A DNA stretch of 41,049 nt, from positions 1 through 41,049 of the IMG/VR virus record IMGVR_UViG_3300021134_000009, one strand, 5' to 3'. This stretch comes from a virus. The first letter of the stretch is position 1, and each line of letters begins with the position of its first letter. Both the position numbers and the translations under genes were made by a program. Positions 7,715 to 33,764 of the stretch are shown here, piece by piece. The notes beneath the pieces are model-generated. The model did not search any database, was not told where the DNA came from, and saw nothing but the letters and a program-made list of their open reading frames with translations.

Positions 7715-9181
7715 CTACCCCCTTACCCCTAGTTTCTCCATAGCAGACTTGAGCCGACCCTGATAGACCGACCTTGCGCTATGACCCATAGCCAACGCCT
7801 CAACAGCGTGGCGCATAGTCGGCGCAACGATTACTCGGTGGCGCTTGACCATTTGAGCAACTGCCATAGTCAAGGCTTCGGCTGGCTTATCATCCGAGCC
7901 TGTTGCCTGTCCGTCAAAGACCCAGATAATCGGCTCGCTTGCTCGGCGTTCCGAGATAGCGTAGTCAAGTGCTGGGCCATCCACTCCGTTGCCGATTTTG
8001 CCCTCTGGAATCTTGCCTGTAGCAACTCGCATACCTCGGTTGGCGATTACCCAAGCGTTAGGCGTTCCAACGCTTCGTGGTCGGTGCGAGTAGCCAATGA
8101 CCAGCGCACTAGGCGATAGGTCAAGCAACTGCTCAAGGTCTTCCTCGCTCAAGTCCATAGAGCCACTTTGGTCGATAAGCACGATTCCACCACTTGAGCG
8201 TTGCTTCGTGCCAAAGATTCGGCGCTGAGGGTCGGTCAGTAGTCGTTCGGGATAGCGCAAGGCTCGACCTGTCGTGGTTGGCTTCGTCTTTCTACCCAAG
8301 TGACCTTTGACCTGCTGATTACAGACTACGGTTTCGTCAAGGATGAGCGGTGCGAACTCGCCCTCTTTAGTGCCGACCTCATACTCGACCCCTGCTCGAC
8401 CTGTTGATTTGTGTATGTCCTTAGCGGAGATAACGCTCTTGAGGCTCATCTCGATAAGTGCGACCAACTCAGCAACATAAGTGCCGTAGCCGTATCCAAT
8501 GATGACCTCTCGCTTGTCGGCGTGGTAAGCCCCACCTTGATACTCAACGCCCTTACCGCTACGGCTCGGCTTGTATCTCCGAGCCTGTGCCAACTGTGTG
8601 CTAGCAAGGTCGTGCGTGTCGGCGTTCTTGGCTACCTTGAGTAGAGCCAACTCCAACTTGCGCATAACTTCAGCCAAGTCTTTGTTGTTTTTGCGAACGC
8701 CAGCGAGATACTTGCGGAATACAGGTGTGCCTGTGATAGCAACTCCGAAGCAGATAGCCTCGTTGTAGCCCTGAGGTGAAGTCAATGCCGACAGACCAGC
8801 CTGAACGCCAGCGTTTTGCTCGCTACCGTCAGTCAGTAGAGCCAAGTCGTAGCCAGCACGACCCAGCAAGGTATTGACCCTAAACTCTTCGGCGCACTCC
8901 ATAACTCGGTGTGAGGTAGCCCACTCCTGCTCAAGTGTCTCAAGTGCCTCAACATCTGTAGGTGAGACCTTGATGTGGATGAGTTCGTGACCTCTAACGA
9001 TTCGTGAAGTTTCGTCACTCGCCAATGGAATGCGAACGATACGGTTCTCGAAGTCTGTGTAAGCGTCACCTCGGTTGGCTGTGCCACCTTTGACCGACCA
9101 ACTATCTACGCCCTCGTTGTCGCTTCGGGAAGCGACAACGATTTCGGGCATAGCAGTTGCGAGTTCGATAGCCCTCGCCAT
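7715..9181 (-). CDS. CobT-like VWA-domain protein with HExxH motif (488 aa)
   Basis: Partner of the AAA+ ATPase encoded just upstream. The C-terminal third is a von Willebrand factor A domain: the metal-site motif DQSGS lies at residues 337-341 after a hydrophobic strand, with later VIGYSHRP and IIWVFDGQATG strands. The N-terminal part has HELIH at 65-69 and AEEFRVN near 97-103, the HExxH...ExxR layout of zincin-like metal sites. MoxR-VWA pairs generally act as metal-dependent remodelling machines. Whether the HExxH cleaves protein is unknown. It could instead be called a generic VWA peptidase-like protein. Confidence 0.85.
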   Translation of the reverse strand: MARAIELATAMPEIVVASRSDNEGVDSWSVKGGTANRGDAYTDFENRIVRIPLASDETSRIVRGHELIHIKVSPTDVEALETLEQEWATSHRVMECAEEFRVNTLLGRAGYDLALLTDGSEQNAGVQAGLSALTSPQGYNEAICFGVAITGTPVFRKYLAGVRKNNKDLAEVMRKLELALLKVAKNADTHDLASTQLAQARRYKPSRSGKGVEYQGGAYHADKREVIIGYGYGTYVAELVALIEMSLKSVISAKDIHKSTGRAGVEYEVGTKEGEFAPLILDETVVCNQQVKGHLGRKTKPTTTGRALRYPERLLTDPQRRIFGTKQRSSGGIVLIDQSGSMDLSEEDLEQLLDLSPSALVIGYSHRPRSVGTPNAWVIANRGMRVATGKIPEGKIGNGVDGPALDYAISERRASEPIIWVFDGQATGSDDKPAEALTMAVAQMVKRHRVIVAPTMRHAVEALAMGHSARSVYQGRLKSAMEKLGVRG

Positions 9182-9906
9182 TAGAGCGCACCAATGGTCA
9201 AGGCTTCGACAATGGCTTCGCCTCGGTTCTTACCGAACACTAGTTGAGCAGAGCGACCTATCTCCATACCTGAGTTGAGCAAGGTCTGATAGTCGTAGAA
9301 CGCTCGCAACGATACTCGGCGTTCAGGCTCGGCAGAGATAACTGCGTTCGCCACCTCTCGCAAGTTTTCGGGCAACTGAAGCAGAGCGTTCGGGTGCGGT
9401 GCGTTAATCTCGATAGCCGTTGAGAACCTGTCTCGCAACGCTGGCTTGAGCCATTCGGGGTTCTCAAGGTTGGTCGTTGCGATAACCGAGAAGCCGTCAA
9501 GGGGAGTAATCACCTCGTCAGTTTCAGGGTTGCGGAACGAAGCCGAAGCAATGCTGTCGGTGAAGTTGTGAAGTTCGCCCTCAACATCTCCCGATACCTT
9601 GTCTATCTCGTCAATGACCAAGCGACCGCCGACCTGACCATTACCTCGCCAAGCCTTGAGAGCCATACCCTCAGCGAAAGTCCAACGCTCTCCGTTCGGC
9701 ATCCAAGTTCCTGATACCTGAGCGTTAGTCATCTCCTCAGAGCAGACCAAGCGGAACGAACCGCCCTCGCCAACTGCGTGAGTTAGTCCTGCGTAAGTCT
9801 TGCCTGTGCCTGGCAAACCCCATAGGATTACTCGCTTGATACCTGCTTCGATAACATCCTCGAAGTCAGTCCAGCACTGTGCTTTCGCAATAGCGCCTGT
9901 TTCCAT
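9181..9906 (-). CDS. MoxR-type AAA+ ATPase (241 aa)
   Basis: AAA+ ATPase expected to form a hexamer that remodels or loads the VWA partner. Walker A GLPGTGKT at 30-37, Walker B LVIDEID at 96-102, sensor-1 VIATTN at 141-146, and a likely arginine finger LRDRFS near 157-162. At 241 residues it is near-minimal for MoxR. Start METGAI follows GGAAGGACAGCAGT. Its stop overlaps the VWA start (TAATG), so the two are translationally coupled, as usual for these pairs. Confidence 0.9.
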   Translation of the reverse strand: METGAIAKAQCWTDFEDVIEAGIKRVILWGLPGTGKTYAGLTHAVGEGGSFRLVCSEEMTNAQVSGTWMPNGERWTFAEGMALKAWRGNGQVGGRLVIDEIDKVSGDVEGELHNFTDSIASASFRNPETDEVITPLDGFSVIATTNLENPEWLKPALRDRFSTAIEINAPHPNALLQLPENLREVANAVISAEPERRVSLRAFYDYQTLLNSGMEIGRSAQLVFGKNRGEAIVEALTIGAL

Positions 9907-21424: not shown

Positions 21425-21498
21425 GCCCTTGTAGCTCAGCTGGCCAGAGCAACTGATTTGTAATCAGTAGGTCACAGGTTCGAATCCTGTCGGGGGCT
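21425..21498 (+). tRNA. tRNA-Thr (anticodon TGT)
   Basis: Full cloverleaf: acceptor GCCCTTG pairs with CGGGGGC using G-T wobbles, anticodon stem ACTGA/TCAGT with loop TTTGTAA, T-arm GGTTCGAATCC. CCA is encoded at 21499-21501. Reads ACA codons. Begins six bases after the Ntn hydrolase stop. Confidence 0.95.
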
Positions 21499-21503
21499 CC
21501 AAT

Positions 21504-21591
21504 GGAAGCGTGGCAGAGCGGCCGATTGCGTTAGTCTTGAAAACTAAAGGATGTCATAGTCCCGTGAGTTCAAATCTCACCGCTTCCTCCA
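21504..21591 (+). tRNA. tRNA-Ser (anticodon TGA)
   Basis: Class II tRNA with a long variable arm: acceptor GGAAGCG/CGCTTCC, anticodon stem TTAGT/ACTAA with loop CTTGAAA, T-arm GTTCAAATC, encoded CCA at 21589-21591. Reads UCA codons. Confidence 0.95.
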
Positions 21592-29173: not shown

Positions 29174-29309
29174 CTCTAACGTCAACGAGCCTAACGTGAA
29201 CAACGAAGGCGGTCTGCGTATGAACGCAGACGGTTCAGAGACATTAATCCCATACAAAGGATTGACGGCTGCTAAGGCTGCCGCTCTAGTGTCTAAAGAA
29301 GTCGGCTAA
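29163..29309 (+). CDS. Small hypothetical protein (48 aa)
   Basis: Frame from ATG 29163 (MSSNSNVNEPNVNNEGGLRMN) overlapping the portal end, stopping at TAA that overlaps the next ATG. Asn-rich N-terminus and a helical end (LTAAKAAALVSKEVG). Probably a minor head-region protein; unknown family. Confidence 0.6.
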   Translation: MSSNSNVNEPNVNNEGGLRMNADGSETLIPYKGLTAAKAAALVSKEVG

Positions 29310-29791
29310 TGAGTAACTATCTCGGGCGTGCGGGTGCTTACGCGCTTCACAAACGCTACCCGACAGGATCTCAAACAGCAGCTCAGTTAAAGGCTGAACG
29401 CGAAAACCTTATTAAAGCGCGCGCTGCTCGTGGTGAATACCGCCACACAAAGTCAGTAACGTATCACGGTCTCCGGAGGGCATCGGTTTCTGGACGTGGA
29501 AGCATTGCGGCTGGTAGGACATATCGACTGTCTTACCTTAGACCAGACCGATTCCGTACCGTAAACGTTCGGTACATTCGGTACAGAAAGAAATACACGA
29601 TTCGTCCGATTCGTATTACTGGTCTTCACAGAAAATTTCGCAGCAGAATCTCTCCGGGTAAATACTTGGGAAGAACTGCGTGGGGCGCTTCAAGAACGCC
29701 ACACTTCAAAAAGAGAGCGAGTAGACGCCAAAGACGTTTCCGAACCATTGCAAGATGGAAAGGTCGCGGAAGGCGTTTTACTCCAAAATAA
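29309..29791 (+). CDS. Very basic Arg/Tyr-rich protein (160 aa)
   Basis: Starts MSNYLGRAGAYALHKRYP. Arginine is extremely frequent (for example RASRRQRRFRTIARWKGRGRRF near the end, and IRYRKKYTIRPIRI mid-protein). Lies between portal and protease genes. Such charge suggests DNA or capsid-interior contact, perhaps an ejected or DNA-condensing head protein (inference). No recognised family. Confidence 0.7.
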   Translation: MSNYLGRAGAYALHKRYPTGSQTAAQLKAERENLIKARAARGEYRHTKSVTYHGLRRASVSGRGSIAAGRTYRLSYLRPDRFRTVNVRYIRYRKKYTIRPIRITGLHRKFRSRISPGKYLGRTAWGASRTPHFKKRASRRQRRFRTIARWKGRGRRFTPK

Positions 29792-29799
29792 ATTTATAT

Positions 29800-32181
29800 A
29801 TGGCAGATGGTTTTTCACCCCCACAACAAGTAAGAAGCAACGCGGCTCGCTCACTAGAACTTCGCAAGAAGTTTGGTCGCGGTATGACCGCGGTTGGCGT
29901 TGCACGCGCTCGCGATTTGTCGAACGGTAAAAACATCTCCGCTGACACCATTAAGAGAATGCACTCATACTTTGCCCGTCACGAAGTTGACAAAAAGGGT
30001 AAGGACTGGGCAAACGCTTCAAACCCATCAGCCGGCTACATTGCGTGGCTTGGTTGGGGTGGAGATGCCGGGCGTTCTTGGGTTAACGGAATTATCAAAA
30101 AGCTTGATGCCAAAGAATCTCAGGAGACTCCAACTATGGCCTCAACCAAGGCAGCTACAATCCGTGGCATTTTCCTTAAGCCAGGACTTTCAAAGAATCG
30201 TCGCCTTTACACCAAGGGCAACATTGCCAAGGCCGTAGAGCGCATGAAGCAACAGCTTGCTAGCGGTGAGGGCATGCCCCTCAACATGGCTACAAGCCAC
30301 GGAGCTGCTTTCAAGGACGACGCTATGTCAACCGTTGCCCGCGTTACTAACGTGTGGCTTAACAACGATGGATCAGCTTCCTTCGAAGCCGATGTAGCGA
30401 ACACAGCAAACGGTCGCGACCTTGCGAACCTTGCAGTTGGAAACTTTATTAAAGGCGTTTCTATTCGTGGAGAATGGCGCGGGGAGCCAAGGGCTATTAC
30501 TTACAGCGACGGCGAAGAAGCCACAACCGCTGACGACCTTGCTATTCACGGCATTGACTTCACTAACAGCCCTGGCGTTGAAGGTGCTGAAATTCAGTAC
30601 GCAACGCTTGCTGAGTCTTACAACCGTCTTTCCATTTTCGAATCAGTCGAGAATGTAGAAATCGTAGAAAAGTTTGACGCTATGTCAGAAGTCGACACAG
30701 AAGAAATTATCCGCGGAGCCGTAGAGAGCGCAATGGAAGCTTTGGCAGAGGCCAAGGATCCCAAGAAGCCTTACGGTGACGTAGTGTACGCCGACCCCGG
30801 CTACCAGAAGGACAAGCAGAAGCGTTACCCAATTAACACCGCTGCTCACGTCCGTGCCGCTTGGTCATACATCAACCAAGCTGACAACGCTCACCTTTAC
30901 ACAACCGCTCAGCTTGCTCGGGTTAAGTCCCGAATCAAGTCAGCCGCTAAGAAGTTTGGCATTAACATTGTTAGCGAGCAGACTCAGCTTGCCGCAGACA
31001 TTCAAGACGTTCTCGAGGCTTACGCTTCAATCGCTTTGGTAAACGACGCCGACACAATCAACATTACCGGTTACACGCAGGATCCTCACCTTTTGAAGAC
31101 TGTTGCTAACCGAATTGCCTTCGGCGCTATTGCTGCTATGCACGCAATTGACCCAGATGACGATGGCGATATCTACCTATCTAAGCCTGACTGGTCACAG
31201 GTTGATGCAACTGGCGATGCTAGTGGCATGGGACCAGAGGAAGAAAACATGCCAGACGACAACAATATGGAATGCGAGCACTGCGGAAACGTAGATTGCC
31301 CAGAGGGCTCAACTTTCTGCCCTTCTTGTGGCGGACAGCTTTCACCAATTTCTAACACCTACGCGATGGAGTGCCACGAATGTGGAACCCCAGCGATGGA
31401 AGGTGCAATGTTCTGTCACAACTGCGGTGCGGCCCGAGTGGTCACACCTGGCAGTGGTGCTCAGGAGTGCGAATCTTGTGGCGCTAACTGCGCTCAAGAC
31501 GCAATGTTTTGCCCCACTTGTGGGACATCTATATCACAGGCGGAGTCGACCGACAACGCCTCTATTCAGAAACAGGAGACTGAAGAAATGAGTGACGAAA
31601 ACGCCACCGTAGCTGACGAGACTCCAGCTGAGGAGACAGCGGTCGAGTCGACCACTGCTCGTACGCTGAGCGACGCAGACCTTCAAGCCCTTGCCGCCCT
31701 AATCATGGGCGCTAAGGCAACCGAAAACACCGAGGAAGAAGTAGCAGCTGAAGTTGCTCCCGAAGCAGAAGTGGCGGCTGAAGAGCCTGCTGTTGACGCT
31801 GAGGAAGTAGCCGTAGAGCCTGCTGCCGACGCCGAAGAATCACACGAATCTAAGGAGATTTCAGTGTCAGAAAACAAGATGTTTAGCGCAGAGGAAGTTA
31901 CTGCAATGATTGCTGAGGCCGCTAAGAACGCCGCCACAGCAGCCGTTGAAGAGGCTACCCGAAACGCTATCGAATCCTACCGTACCGGCAAGACCCCAGC
32001 TTCACGCAAGGGGCTTACCGGAACAGCAGGTAGCGAAGCTTCCGACTTGTCAGAAGCAGAGCTCACGCCTGAGGCATTGGCCGAGATGTCGTCGACCAAC
32101 TTCCGTAAGGTTCAAGCAGAGACATGGGGAGATCACCCATTTTTCGCAACCAAGTTCGCTCAGGCTGAGCGCGGCTTTTAA
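29800..32181 (+). CDS. Prohead protease-zinc ribbon-scaffold polyprotein (793 aa)
   Basis: Start MADGFSPPQQVRSNAARSLEL at ATG 29800; an earlier in-frame ATG lies inside the preceding gene. Domains in order: residues 1-105, a small 'NAARSLELRKKFGRGMTAVGVARARDL'-type domain; about 113-290, prohead protease with candidate catalytic His in TSHGA and Ser in KGVSIRG; about 320-390, DUF6582-like (YGDVVYADPGYQ...AAWSYINQADN); about 490-580, three zinc ribbons (CEHC/CPSC, CHEC/CHNC, CESC/CPTC); then an acidic Ala/Glu linker and a helical scaffold-like tail. Internal starts with good ribosome sites lie at 30136, 31588 and 31864. Confidence 0.85.
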   Translation: MADGFSPPQQVRSNAARSLELRKKFGRGMTAVGVARARDLSNGKNISADTIKRMHSYFARHEVDKKGKDWANASNPSAGYIAWLGWGGDAGRSWVNGIIKKLDAKESQETPTMASTKAATIRGIFLKPGLSKNRRLYTKGNIAKAVERMKQQLASGEGMPLNMATSHGAAFKDDAMSTVARVTNVWLNNDGSASFEADVANTANGRDLANLAVGNFIKGVSIRGEWRGEPRAITYSDGEEATTADDLAIHGIDFTNSPGVEGAEIQYATLAESYNRLSIFESVENVEIVEKFDAMSEVDTEEIIRGAVESAMEALAEAKDPKKPYGDVVYADPGYQKDKQKRYPINTAAHVRAAWSYINQADNAHLYTTAQLARVKSRIKSAAKKFGINIVSEQTQLAADIQDVLEAYASIALVNDADTINITGYTQDPHLLKTVANRIAFGAIAAMHAIDPDDDGDIYLSKPDWSQVDATGDASGMGPEEENMPDDNNMECEHCGNVDCPEGSTFCPSCGGQLSPISNTYAMECHECGTPAMEGAMFCHNCGAARVVTPGSGAQECESCGANCAQDAMFCPTCGTSISQAESTDNASIQKQETEEMSDENATVADETPAEETAVESTTARTLSDADLQALAALIMGAKATENTEEEVAAEVAPEAEVAAEEPAVDAEEVAVEPAADAEESHESKEISVSENKMFSAEEVTAMIAEAAKNAATAAVEEATRNAIESYRTGKTPASRKGLTGTAGSEASDLSEAELTPEALAEMSSTNFRKVQAETWGDHPFFATKFAQAERGF
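31588..32181 (+). CDS. Possible nested scaffold protein, internal ATG (197 aa)
   Basis: In-frame ATG at 31588 preceded by AGGAG at 31574-31578. The product would be the acidic linker plus helical tail of the polyprotein, matching how lambda Nu3 is made inside gene C. A shorter version from GTG 31864, behind AAGGAG (31852-31857), would be 105 residues. Confidence 0.5.
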   Translation: MSDENATVADETPAEETAVESTTARTLSDADLQALAALIMGAKATENTEEEVAAEVAPEAEVAAEEPAVDAEEVAVEPAADAEESHESKEISVSENKMFSAEEVTAMIAEAAKNAATAAVEEATRNAIESYRTGKTPASRKGLTGTAGSEASDLSEAELTPEALAEMSSTNFRKVQAETWGDHPFFATKFAQAERGF

Positions 32182-32213: not shown

Positions 32214-33764
32214 ATGTCAAATGACTTGCAAGAAGCCCTTACTGCTGCTGGTGCTGCCGCACTGGTACAGAAGCAGATTGACCCAGTATTGCTCGAGTAC
32301 CAGCGCCGCTACGCGCCTCTGGTCCGCGCTCTGCCGTCAACCAAGTGGGGCTCCACAGTATACTACTTCAACAAGCGTACAACTCTGCCTTCGGGTGGTT
32401 TCGTAACGGACGGTGGCGCACGCCCTGTTTCGACTTCGAACTACGCTCAGGAGAACTTCCAGATTCGTCTGCTCCAGTCAGTCGGTGCTGTCACCGGTTA
32501 CTCGCAGGCTGTCACGGCTGACCTTATTGGTGACCTCCGTGCCCGTGAAATCGAGGGTGCTGCCCGCGGTTTGTACTGGGACATTGAGACTGCACTGATC
32601 TGGGGTGCCGAGGCTCCTACCACGAACGGTGCTTACCCACAGTTCGACGGCTTGGACGTAATCTGCTCATCCTTCTCATCAGCTTCAACCGGTGGCCCTT
32701 CAACAGGCATCGGCGGCGGTACAATCGACAACTACGGCGGTGCTTCAACTTGGGGCGCTCCTAACTTCTCACCTTGGACTGACGGCATTGACCAGAACGC
32801 AATCGACATGGCCGGCGGCTCGCTGACCCTCGGTGCTTTGGACCTTGTCATTGACCTCGTTGAGTCAAACGTTGCCGAGCCCGTCGAGAACTCCGAGTGG
32901 ATGTTCCTCATGTCACCTTCGGCTAACAGCCGTTTGAGCCAGTTGCTTGTCAACCAGCAGCGTTTCGTTGACCAGGTTGAAATTGCAGCAGGTTTGATCG
33001 TTCCTTCATACCGCGGTATCCCAGTTGTCAAGTCTTCATTCTTGTCACCTCGTACCAACGTAATGGGCGCTGTTTCAACCTCATCAACCACCGGTACCCT
33101 TGGCGCCGCAACCTACTTCTACAAGGTTGCTCCTGTCATCGCTCGCTTCGGTGAAATCCAGGCTGCTGCTACAGCTGCTGCTGGTGTCACCTTGGCTTCA
33201 GCCGGCGGTATCTCGCTGTCATTCTCGACCCCAACCGGTCCAGAAGGCTCACAGCCCACACACTACAAGGTCTACCGTGCCACTGGTACGAGCGGAACCC
33301 TTCCTGCCAACAGCTTGTTCTCACTTGTTGGTATGGTCGACGCTTCCTACCTCGACTCAACCGGCAACATCTGGCCTACCACAAAGATTACCGACACTGG
33401 TACAGCTTTGGTTCCTAACGACGGATCGCACTCCATCGGTACCGCTCCAACAACGTACTTCTACGGTAACACTGGAATGCACCCACTCTCCTCAAACGGC
33501 GAGCAGAGCGTCTTCCTCATGTCCCGTGACCCCAACTACATCACACGTCCATTCGTGCGTGAGATGCAGCCGGTCAACGTCTACCCGACCACTGCTTCGC
33601 CTGACAGCCTGCCATTCGCATTCGTTGCGGACACCACGCTCGCTGTTCGTGCTCCTAAGTACATCGGTCGTTTGGCTAACGTCGTCGCTTCGTTGGACAA
33701 GACTGCTGGTAACGGAATTCTTCCTACCAACTCGTCTTACACACCTAGCTTCGTAGTTGACTAA
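32214..33764 (+). CDS. Major capsid protein with FN3-like insert (516 aa)
   Basis: HK97-type major capsid protein by position after the protease/scaffold gene and a strong AAGGAG site. Conserved-looking N-terminal part (YYFNKRTTLPSGGFV..., SVGAVTGYSQAVTADLIGDL) and C-terminal part (REMQPVNVYPTT...). Residues about 285-400 look like a fibronectin type III domain (TYFYKVAPV...GEIQ..., HYKVYRATGTSG), which would project from the capsid surface. Codon use is strongly biased, as expected for an abundant protein. Confidence 0.9.
   Translation: MSNDLQEALTAAGAAALVQKQIDPVLLEYQRRYAPLVRALPSTKWGSTVYYFNKRTTLPSGGFVTDGGARPVSTSNYAQENFQIRLLQSVGAVTGYSQAVTADLIGDLRAREIEGAARGLYWDIETALIWGAEAPTTNGAYPQFDGLDVICSSFSSASTGGPSTGIGGGTIDNYGGASTWGAPNFSPWTDGIDQNAIDMAGGSLTLGALDLVIDLVESNVAEPVENSEWMFLMSPSANSRLSQLLVNQQRFVDQVEIAAGLIVPSYRGIPVVKSSFLSPRTNVMGAVSTSSTTGTLGAATYFYKVAPVIARFGEIQAAATAAAGVTLASAGGISLSFSTPTGPEGSQPTHYKVYRATGTSGTLPANSLFSLVGMVDASYLDSTGNIWPTTKITDTGTALVPNDGSHSIGTAPTTYFYGNTGMHPLSSNGEQSVFLMSRDPNYITRPFVREMQPVNVYPTTASPDSLPFAFVADTTLAVRAPKYIGRLANVVASLDKTAGNGILPTNSSYTPSFVVD

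Follow-up and report, generated by a model that had tools for sequence, protein, structure and literature searches.

Genes in which a scaffold is nested within a protease gene are already known. In phage lambda, the Nu3 scaffold is described as an in-frame nested product of the C gene (Shaw and Murialdo, 1980, via PMC8508860), and in phage P2 both the protease and the scaffold come from one gene, that of gpO (PMC8508860). In phage T4, an internal start of gene 21 gives rise to a short form, which has been reported to be essential (PMC9026906); this form corresponds to T4p173. The gp21 protease has a catalytic triad of the H/S/D type (PMC5694885) and cleaves after L/I-x-E (PMC9026906). The herpesvirus protease is related to T4 gp21 in both fold and catalytic residues (PMC5694885), and the nested UL26.5 of the herpesvirus gene UL26 provides the main scaffold, with release at the so-called R and M sites (PMC12474303).

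The window considered here, i.e., the whole stretch of DNA that was analysed, is 41,049 bp in length with 50% G+C and belongs to an uncultured virus record. At 29800-32181 it contains a gene that joins three of these precedents: lambda C/Nu3, the second start of T4 gene 21, and herpesvirus UL26/UL26.5. The best explanation of its sequence, and one that we hold to be very probable, is a fused gene of the 21/22 type that is read from nested starts. The features of the head gene cluster are as follows (SD, Shine-Dalgarno sequence).

From 26079: terL, the first gene of the head cluster.
From 27617: portal gene, after terL.
29309-29791, plus strand: very basic 160-aa protein (pI 12, net charge +42), between the portal and the polyprotein.
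29800-32181, plus strand: full open reading frame (793 aa, 84.7 kDa, pI 4.6).
29800-30135, plus strand: N-terminal basic helical module (N-domain), phrog_2859-like (1.4e-21), starting at ATG 29800 with a weak SD.
30122-30138, plus strand: internal start 1, with AGGAG at 30122-30126, spacing 9 and ATG 30136; predicted 681-aa (72.4 kDa) protease-scaffold product.
30136-30654, plus strand: T4 gp21-like (Peptidase_S77) prohead protease domain, from AF2 model, Foldseek and alignment.
30607-30642, plus strand: two candidate release sites just behind the protease, LAE/S (P0001 residue 287) and IFE/S (296).
30757-30975, plus strand: DUF6582 module (PF20223, 1.8e-20; residues 335-407).
31273-31521, plus strand: three single four-Cys zinc ribbons (31273-31329, 31372-31425 and 31468-31521).
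31574-31590, plus strand: internal start 2, with AGGAG at 31574-31578, spacing 9 and ATG 31588; predicted 197-aa (20.6 kDa) scaffold product.
31852-31866, plus strand: internal start 3, with AAGGAG at 31852-31857, spacing 6 and GTG 31864; predicted 105-aa (11.2 kDa) scaffold product.
31864-32178, plus strand: helical (coiled) segment and conserved C-terminal domain, in all four products; candidate end for binding the major capsid protein (MCP).
32214-33764, plus strand: MCP, the next gene (PF17236 SU10_MCP, 3.2e-7, weak; phrog_752, 2.8e-31).

Along the 793-aa protein, the N-domain is followed by the gp21-like protease, DUF6582, the zinc ribbons, an acidic, Ala/Glu-rich linker and the coiled tail; the predicted products of 793, 681, 197 and 105 aa all have the same C-terminus. 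The AF2 model of the full-length protein was poor (pLDDT 50), and that of the protease domain reached a pLDDT of 80.7. When the latter was submitted to Foldseek, the only PDB matches below 1e-3 were to 5jbl, the T4 gp21 protease (E 7e-4, probability 1.00, TM 0.55), and a search of BFVD with the same domain gave 165 matches below 1e-3, many of them named prohead protease. For the Pfam family Peptidase_S77, whose curated cutoff is 27 bits, relatives L032 (5.8e-6, 26.4 bits) and L148 (20.5 bits) approached the cutoff; the window protein was not among the matches to this family, and its sequence match to 5jbl has an E value of 0.085. The residues aligned with the catalytic H85, S140 and D168 of T4 gp21 are invariant (alignment A4), the catalytic Ser of the window protein lying in GVSIRG. 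The fold model, the near-cutoff S77 matches in relatives and the catalytic H/S/D residues support a prohead protease of the gp21 type, in agreement with the initial annotation, which had proposed a prohead protease; a lambda-type protease was rejected because the fold found by Foldseek is that of gp21.

The surroundings of the gene lead in the same direction. The T4 order 20-67-68-21-22-23 is mirrored by the portal, the basic protein, the window gene and the MCP, with the basic protein at the position of T4 gp67/gp68. The gp21 fold, the invariant H/S/D residues and this gene order together lead us to regard the gene as a fused 21/22-type gene, composed of a gene 21 protease and a gene 22-like scaffold. 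Genes 21 and 22 of T4 are, however, separate, whereas the window gene has a single reading frame in which three internal starts are preceded by an SD, and it also encodes the N-domain, DUF6582 and the zinc ribbons. The gene for the basic protein is present in the 19 representatives described below, and its product may belong to the core or condense DNA.

About 27 distinct full-length relatives were gathered and cut to 19 representatives with less than 95% identity; a wider close group comprised 51 distinct ORFs. These relatives are not independent, with a median identity of fourfold third bases of 0.42, a value low enough to indicate that the conservation of SDs and start codons does not simply reflect relatedness. 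The upstream start is ATG 29800, since stop codons lie just before the homologous position in relatives; ATG 29755 was rejected for this reason, and the longer ORF that begins there is best read as an accident.

The internal starts proposed in the initial annotation (ATG 30136, ATG 31588 and GTG 31864) have SDs and spacings exactly as it described, and are conserved throughout the 19 representatives. At 30136, ATG is found in all of them, two with a small alignment offset, and 31588 is likewise always a start codon (GTG in 16, ATG in 3). At 31864, both GTG and SD are present in 19/19, as well as in four further relatives, against a background in which GTG accounts for 10% of the Val codons in the relatives' genes, the start sites themselves counted. 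The mean energy of the duplex with the anti-SD in the 19 relatives was -7.0, -7.9 and -7.1 kcal/mol at 30136, 31588 and 31864, compared with -4.0, -5.3 and -3.6 kcal/mol when synonymous codons were permuted inside each gene (z -6.0, -4.5 and -7.2, respectively; none of 1000 shuffles equalled the observed value), and 31864 shows the strongest synonymous constraint of all sites. For ATG 29800, the mean was -1.4. Nine further internal start-codon columns are conserved in the gene, all of them without a strong SD (means -0.2 to -4.2); the column at 29884 beats its own shuffles, yet its SD mean is just -3.1. Similarly, no strong SD was found at the conserved internal start columns of terL, portal, MCP and ORF 34154, where the best value, -5.2, falls short of the -6 level. 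The MCP gene itself starts behind an AAGGAG SD (mean -7.1). Structure is weaker around the internal starts (means -14.0, -12.8 and -10.2) than at random in-gene codons (-16.5). Neither ATG 31228 nor ATG 31267 was accepted as an additional start ahead of the ribbons: both codons are conserved, but their SDs do not exceed those of the shuffles.

On a tree of the protein without its N-domain, the start codon at 31588 changes three times, a swapping of ATG and GTG that would make sense only for a start codon. In distant relatives, with proteases 37-46% identical and high G+C, a GTG or ATG start and its SD are kept at this position, and the weakness of the SD excess in this set (z -1.6, 41/1000 shuffles) is attributable to a codon usage that favours G-rich codons. 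A 31588-type start is present in every lineage examined. In L148/L151, no 31864-type start was seen, and this start seems to be an elaboration that belongs to the close group.

No part of the protein is more conserved than the N-domain, which must therefore be translated, and 29800 is the sole conserved start before it. It is missing in the close relatives L036/L110, L093, L095, L097-L101, L102, L136 and L150, and in the more distant L148/L149 and L151, and is not encoded elsewhere in the locus of these relatives. All of them start at the 30136 site (the distant pair at the homologous position) with an AGGAG-type SD, which indicates that 30136 is functional as the start of the protease in natural phages. 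On the tree of the remaining protein, the presence of the N-domain changes about five times, and at least three of these changes are forced by well-supported branches; the N-domain is accordingly best described as an in-frame extension gained and lost around 30136. Together with the conservation of SDs and start codons and the ATG/GTG interchange at 31588, these relatives strongly support the idea, put forward at the outset, that nested starts give rise to the protease and the scaffold as distinct products.

Elsewhere, the N-domain behaves as a mobile module, which stands alone in Pseudomonas phage PaBG and Synechococcus phage S-CBS4 and is fused to various other head proteins in further cases. 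The stand-alone relative in PaBG carries the annotation of a putative DNA-binding protein; a PDB sequence search with the N-domain found no relative. A second family, L059-L081, shares the N-domain in front of an HK97-like protease. Most of its members have an AGGAG-ATG before a scaffold-like part, and the linker contains Cys-rich motifs (CLECGC).

The tail of the window protein is probably scaffold-like, as suggested by its position, its acidity and composition, the predicted helices (697-729 plus C-terminal ones, in a low-confidence model), the conservation of its C-terminus and the presence of cleavage-like sites. The L/I-x-E sites behind the protease are conserved in 19/19 (287) and 18/19 (296) representatives, and a second conserved pair, LSE/A (P0001 residue 767) and LAE/M (777), lies near the C-terminus, 31-41 residues from the end. 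L/I-x-E occurs in at least 90% of relatives in four columns, compared with zero to two columns for other offsets, an excess that seems modest but well placed.

We propose that the frame is read from four starts, so that the four resulting proteins would share their C-terminus. ATG 29800, which has a weak SD and whose translation is probably coupled to that of the basic gene upstream, would provide a small amount of the 793-aa N-domain protein; ATG 30136 would give the 681-aa protease-scaffold, and ATG 31588 and GTG 31864 the scaffolds of 197 and 105 aa. Binding of the capsid protein is the most likely task of the common C-terminus, and a minority of protease chains would in this way co-assemble in a core that consists mainly of short scaffold. 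Once assembly is complete, the protease would cleave at the conserved L/I-x-E sites, both those that follow its own domain and those close to the C-terminus, whereby the protease would be released and the scaffold detached. This scheme offers a testable rule on how phages may set the ratio of protease to scaffold.

Since the zinc ribbons precede both scaffold starts, only the protease-bearing products would carry them. The block had been described as three double ribbons; its six CxxC knuckles and the Pfam matches (DZR, 39.1 bits vs a cutoff of 27.3; Zn_Ribbon_1, 33.4 vs 25) correct this to three single ones, each DZR match covering two adjacent ribbons. The number of ribbons in relatives is two, three or four (4-8 CxxC), falls to one in L148/L151, and is zero in some distant relatives. 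According to the initial annotation, the ribbons may bind portal, capsid or RNA. An essential scaffolding role is unlikely, because the ribbons are variable, are absent or replaced in the wider family, where they are dispensable, and are missing from the nested scaffolds; they may instead form a compact module for spacing or docking on the protease-bearing chains. In a more specific version, which is tentative and rather doubtful, the gene yields four C-coterminal head proteins, and the ribbon block of the protease-bearing forms would depend on zinc to dock or activate the protease, determining where or when it enters the prohead. Distant gp21-like protease genes (L155, L156, L157, L159 and L164) have another Cys-rich block (CPCGCGC...CPCxC) at the ribbon position, a DUF5872-like module (VYPSAVANAW..YKKRG) lies between the ribbons and the scaffold start in L021, L032 and L048, and L038/L050 contain another insert after the protease.

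The nearest competitor to nested starts at all sites is a reduced version, in which the protease and a single nested scaffold (31588) are functional and either 31864 or 29800 is minor or unused. The occurrence of the 31588-type start in every lineage examined, the absence of the 31864-type from L148/L151 and the weak SD of 29800 agree with it; however, 31864 is precisely the site under the strongest synonymous constraint, the highly conserved N-domain has 29800 as its sole conserved start, and terL and portal of the window phage also start without an SD, which makes this version improbable. It is very improbable that only the full-length polyprotein is made, its parts being separated by proteolysis in the style of P2 gpO and its internal SDs remaining unused. 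The L/I-x-E sites behind the protease could split the parts, and P2 sets a single-gene example (PMC8508860), but proteolysis alone leaves the conservation of SDs and start codons against synonymous change unaccounted for, as well as the ATG/GTG interchange and the relatives whose sole start is the 30136 site.

The SD-like stretches could also be translational pause sites, or arise by chance from Glu/Lys-rich coding. The region is indeed rich in E and K, so that shuffles too reach -5.3 at 31588, and the excess is weak in high-GC relatives. We nevertheless give this reading hardly any credence, since the stretches sit at start spacing ahead of conserved ATG or GTG codons, GTG at 31864 is invariant against its 10% background, and neither the nine other conserved start-codon columns nor the neighbour genes have a strong SD. 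Least probable of all is that the protein, in view of its ribbons and N-domain, binds nucleic acid as an RNA or DNA regulator for which head assembly is secondary: the basic N-domain and the annotation of its PaBG relative would suit such a role, but the ribbons form an acidic block (pI 4.1, net charge -10), the gene is located in a head cluster and encodes a gp21-type protease, and relatives dispense with both N-domain and ribbons.

Compared with the described systems, the fused gene with nested starts most resembles lambda C/Nu3 in its mode of expression, as its scaffold would come from in-frame internal starts (31588 and 31864) and share its C-terminus with the protease protein. Lambda gpC is a ClpP/SppA-type protease (S49), whereas the window gene has a gp21-type protease, plus three internal starts and ribbons; given this difference in fold, it would work like C/Nu3 but is no member of that group. 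The layout also resembles UL26/UL26.5, with a predicted nested C-terminal scaffold and candidate sites behind the protease (R-like) and near the C-terminus (M-like). However, UL26.5 is a separate gene that starts inside UL26 and has its own transcript, in contrast to the predicted bacterial internal initiation and two scaffold sizes of the window gene. A search of the openly available literature found no description of such an arrangement. New is the combination: a gp21-type protease is fused to a scaffold, with two nested starts for the scaffold and one for the protease, and the gene also encodes zinc ribbons and an N-domain that is mobile. On strong comparative evidence, nested scaffold initiation from a protease gene would also occur with a protease of the gp21/herpes type and with two scaffold sizes, and the call of a single ORF would hide two to three proteins, which is a warning for annotation.

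The 'prohead core scaffolding protein and protease' of phages RaK2 and GAP32 was rejected as a fusion precedent, as it is about 200-210 aa long and the next gene is separate. In the cultured Roseobacter phages CRP-811/406/831/823 (loci L169 3528-5978, L170 3525-5909, L171 3486-6410 and L083 4195-6447), a related N-domain is fused to a protease, and a strong AGGAG-type SD with an in-frame ATG is found just before the capsid part, in genes annotated only as 'major capsid protein'. In these phages, the part downstream is the MCP and not a scaffold, the protease appears HK97-like by inspection, and zinc ribbons are absent. Considered with the AGGAG starts of the N-domain family with HK97-like proteases, these fusions suggest that head genes led by a protease may commonly contain nested starts that annotation misses.

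The phage group that carries the protease-scaffold gene is uncultured and mostly from freshwater, and its MCP (32214-33764) had no tblastn match at 1e-5 in a collection of 50,697 cultured phage records. A scan of GTDB genomes for a host found no relative of the protease, and a single match, to the N-domain only, in a Burkholderiaceae MAG. In other parts of the window, an AAA_5 ATPase gene adjoins that of a protein of 488 aa that has a DQSGSM (VWA-like) motif and no Pfam match, the two (together 7715-9906, minus strand) resembling a MoxR/VWA-like pair, and adjacent genes for tRNA-Thr(tgt) and tRNA-Ser(tga) are located at 21425-21591.
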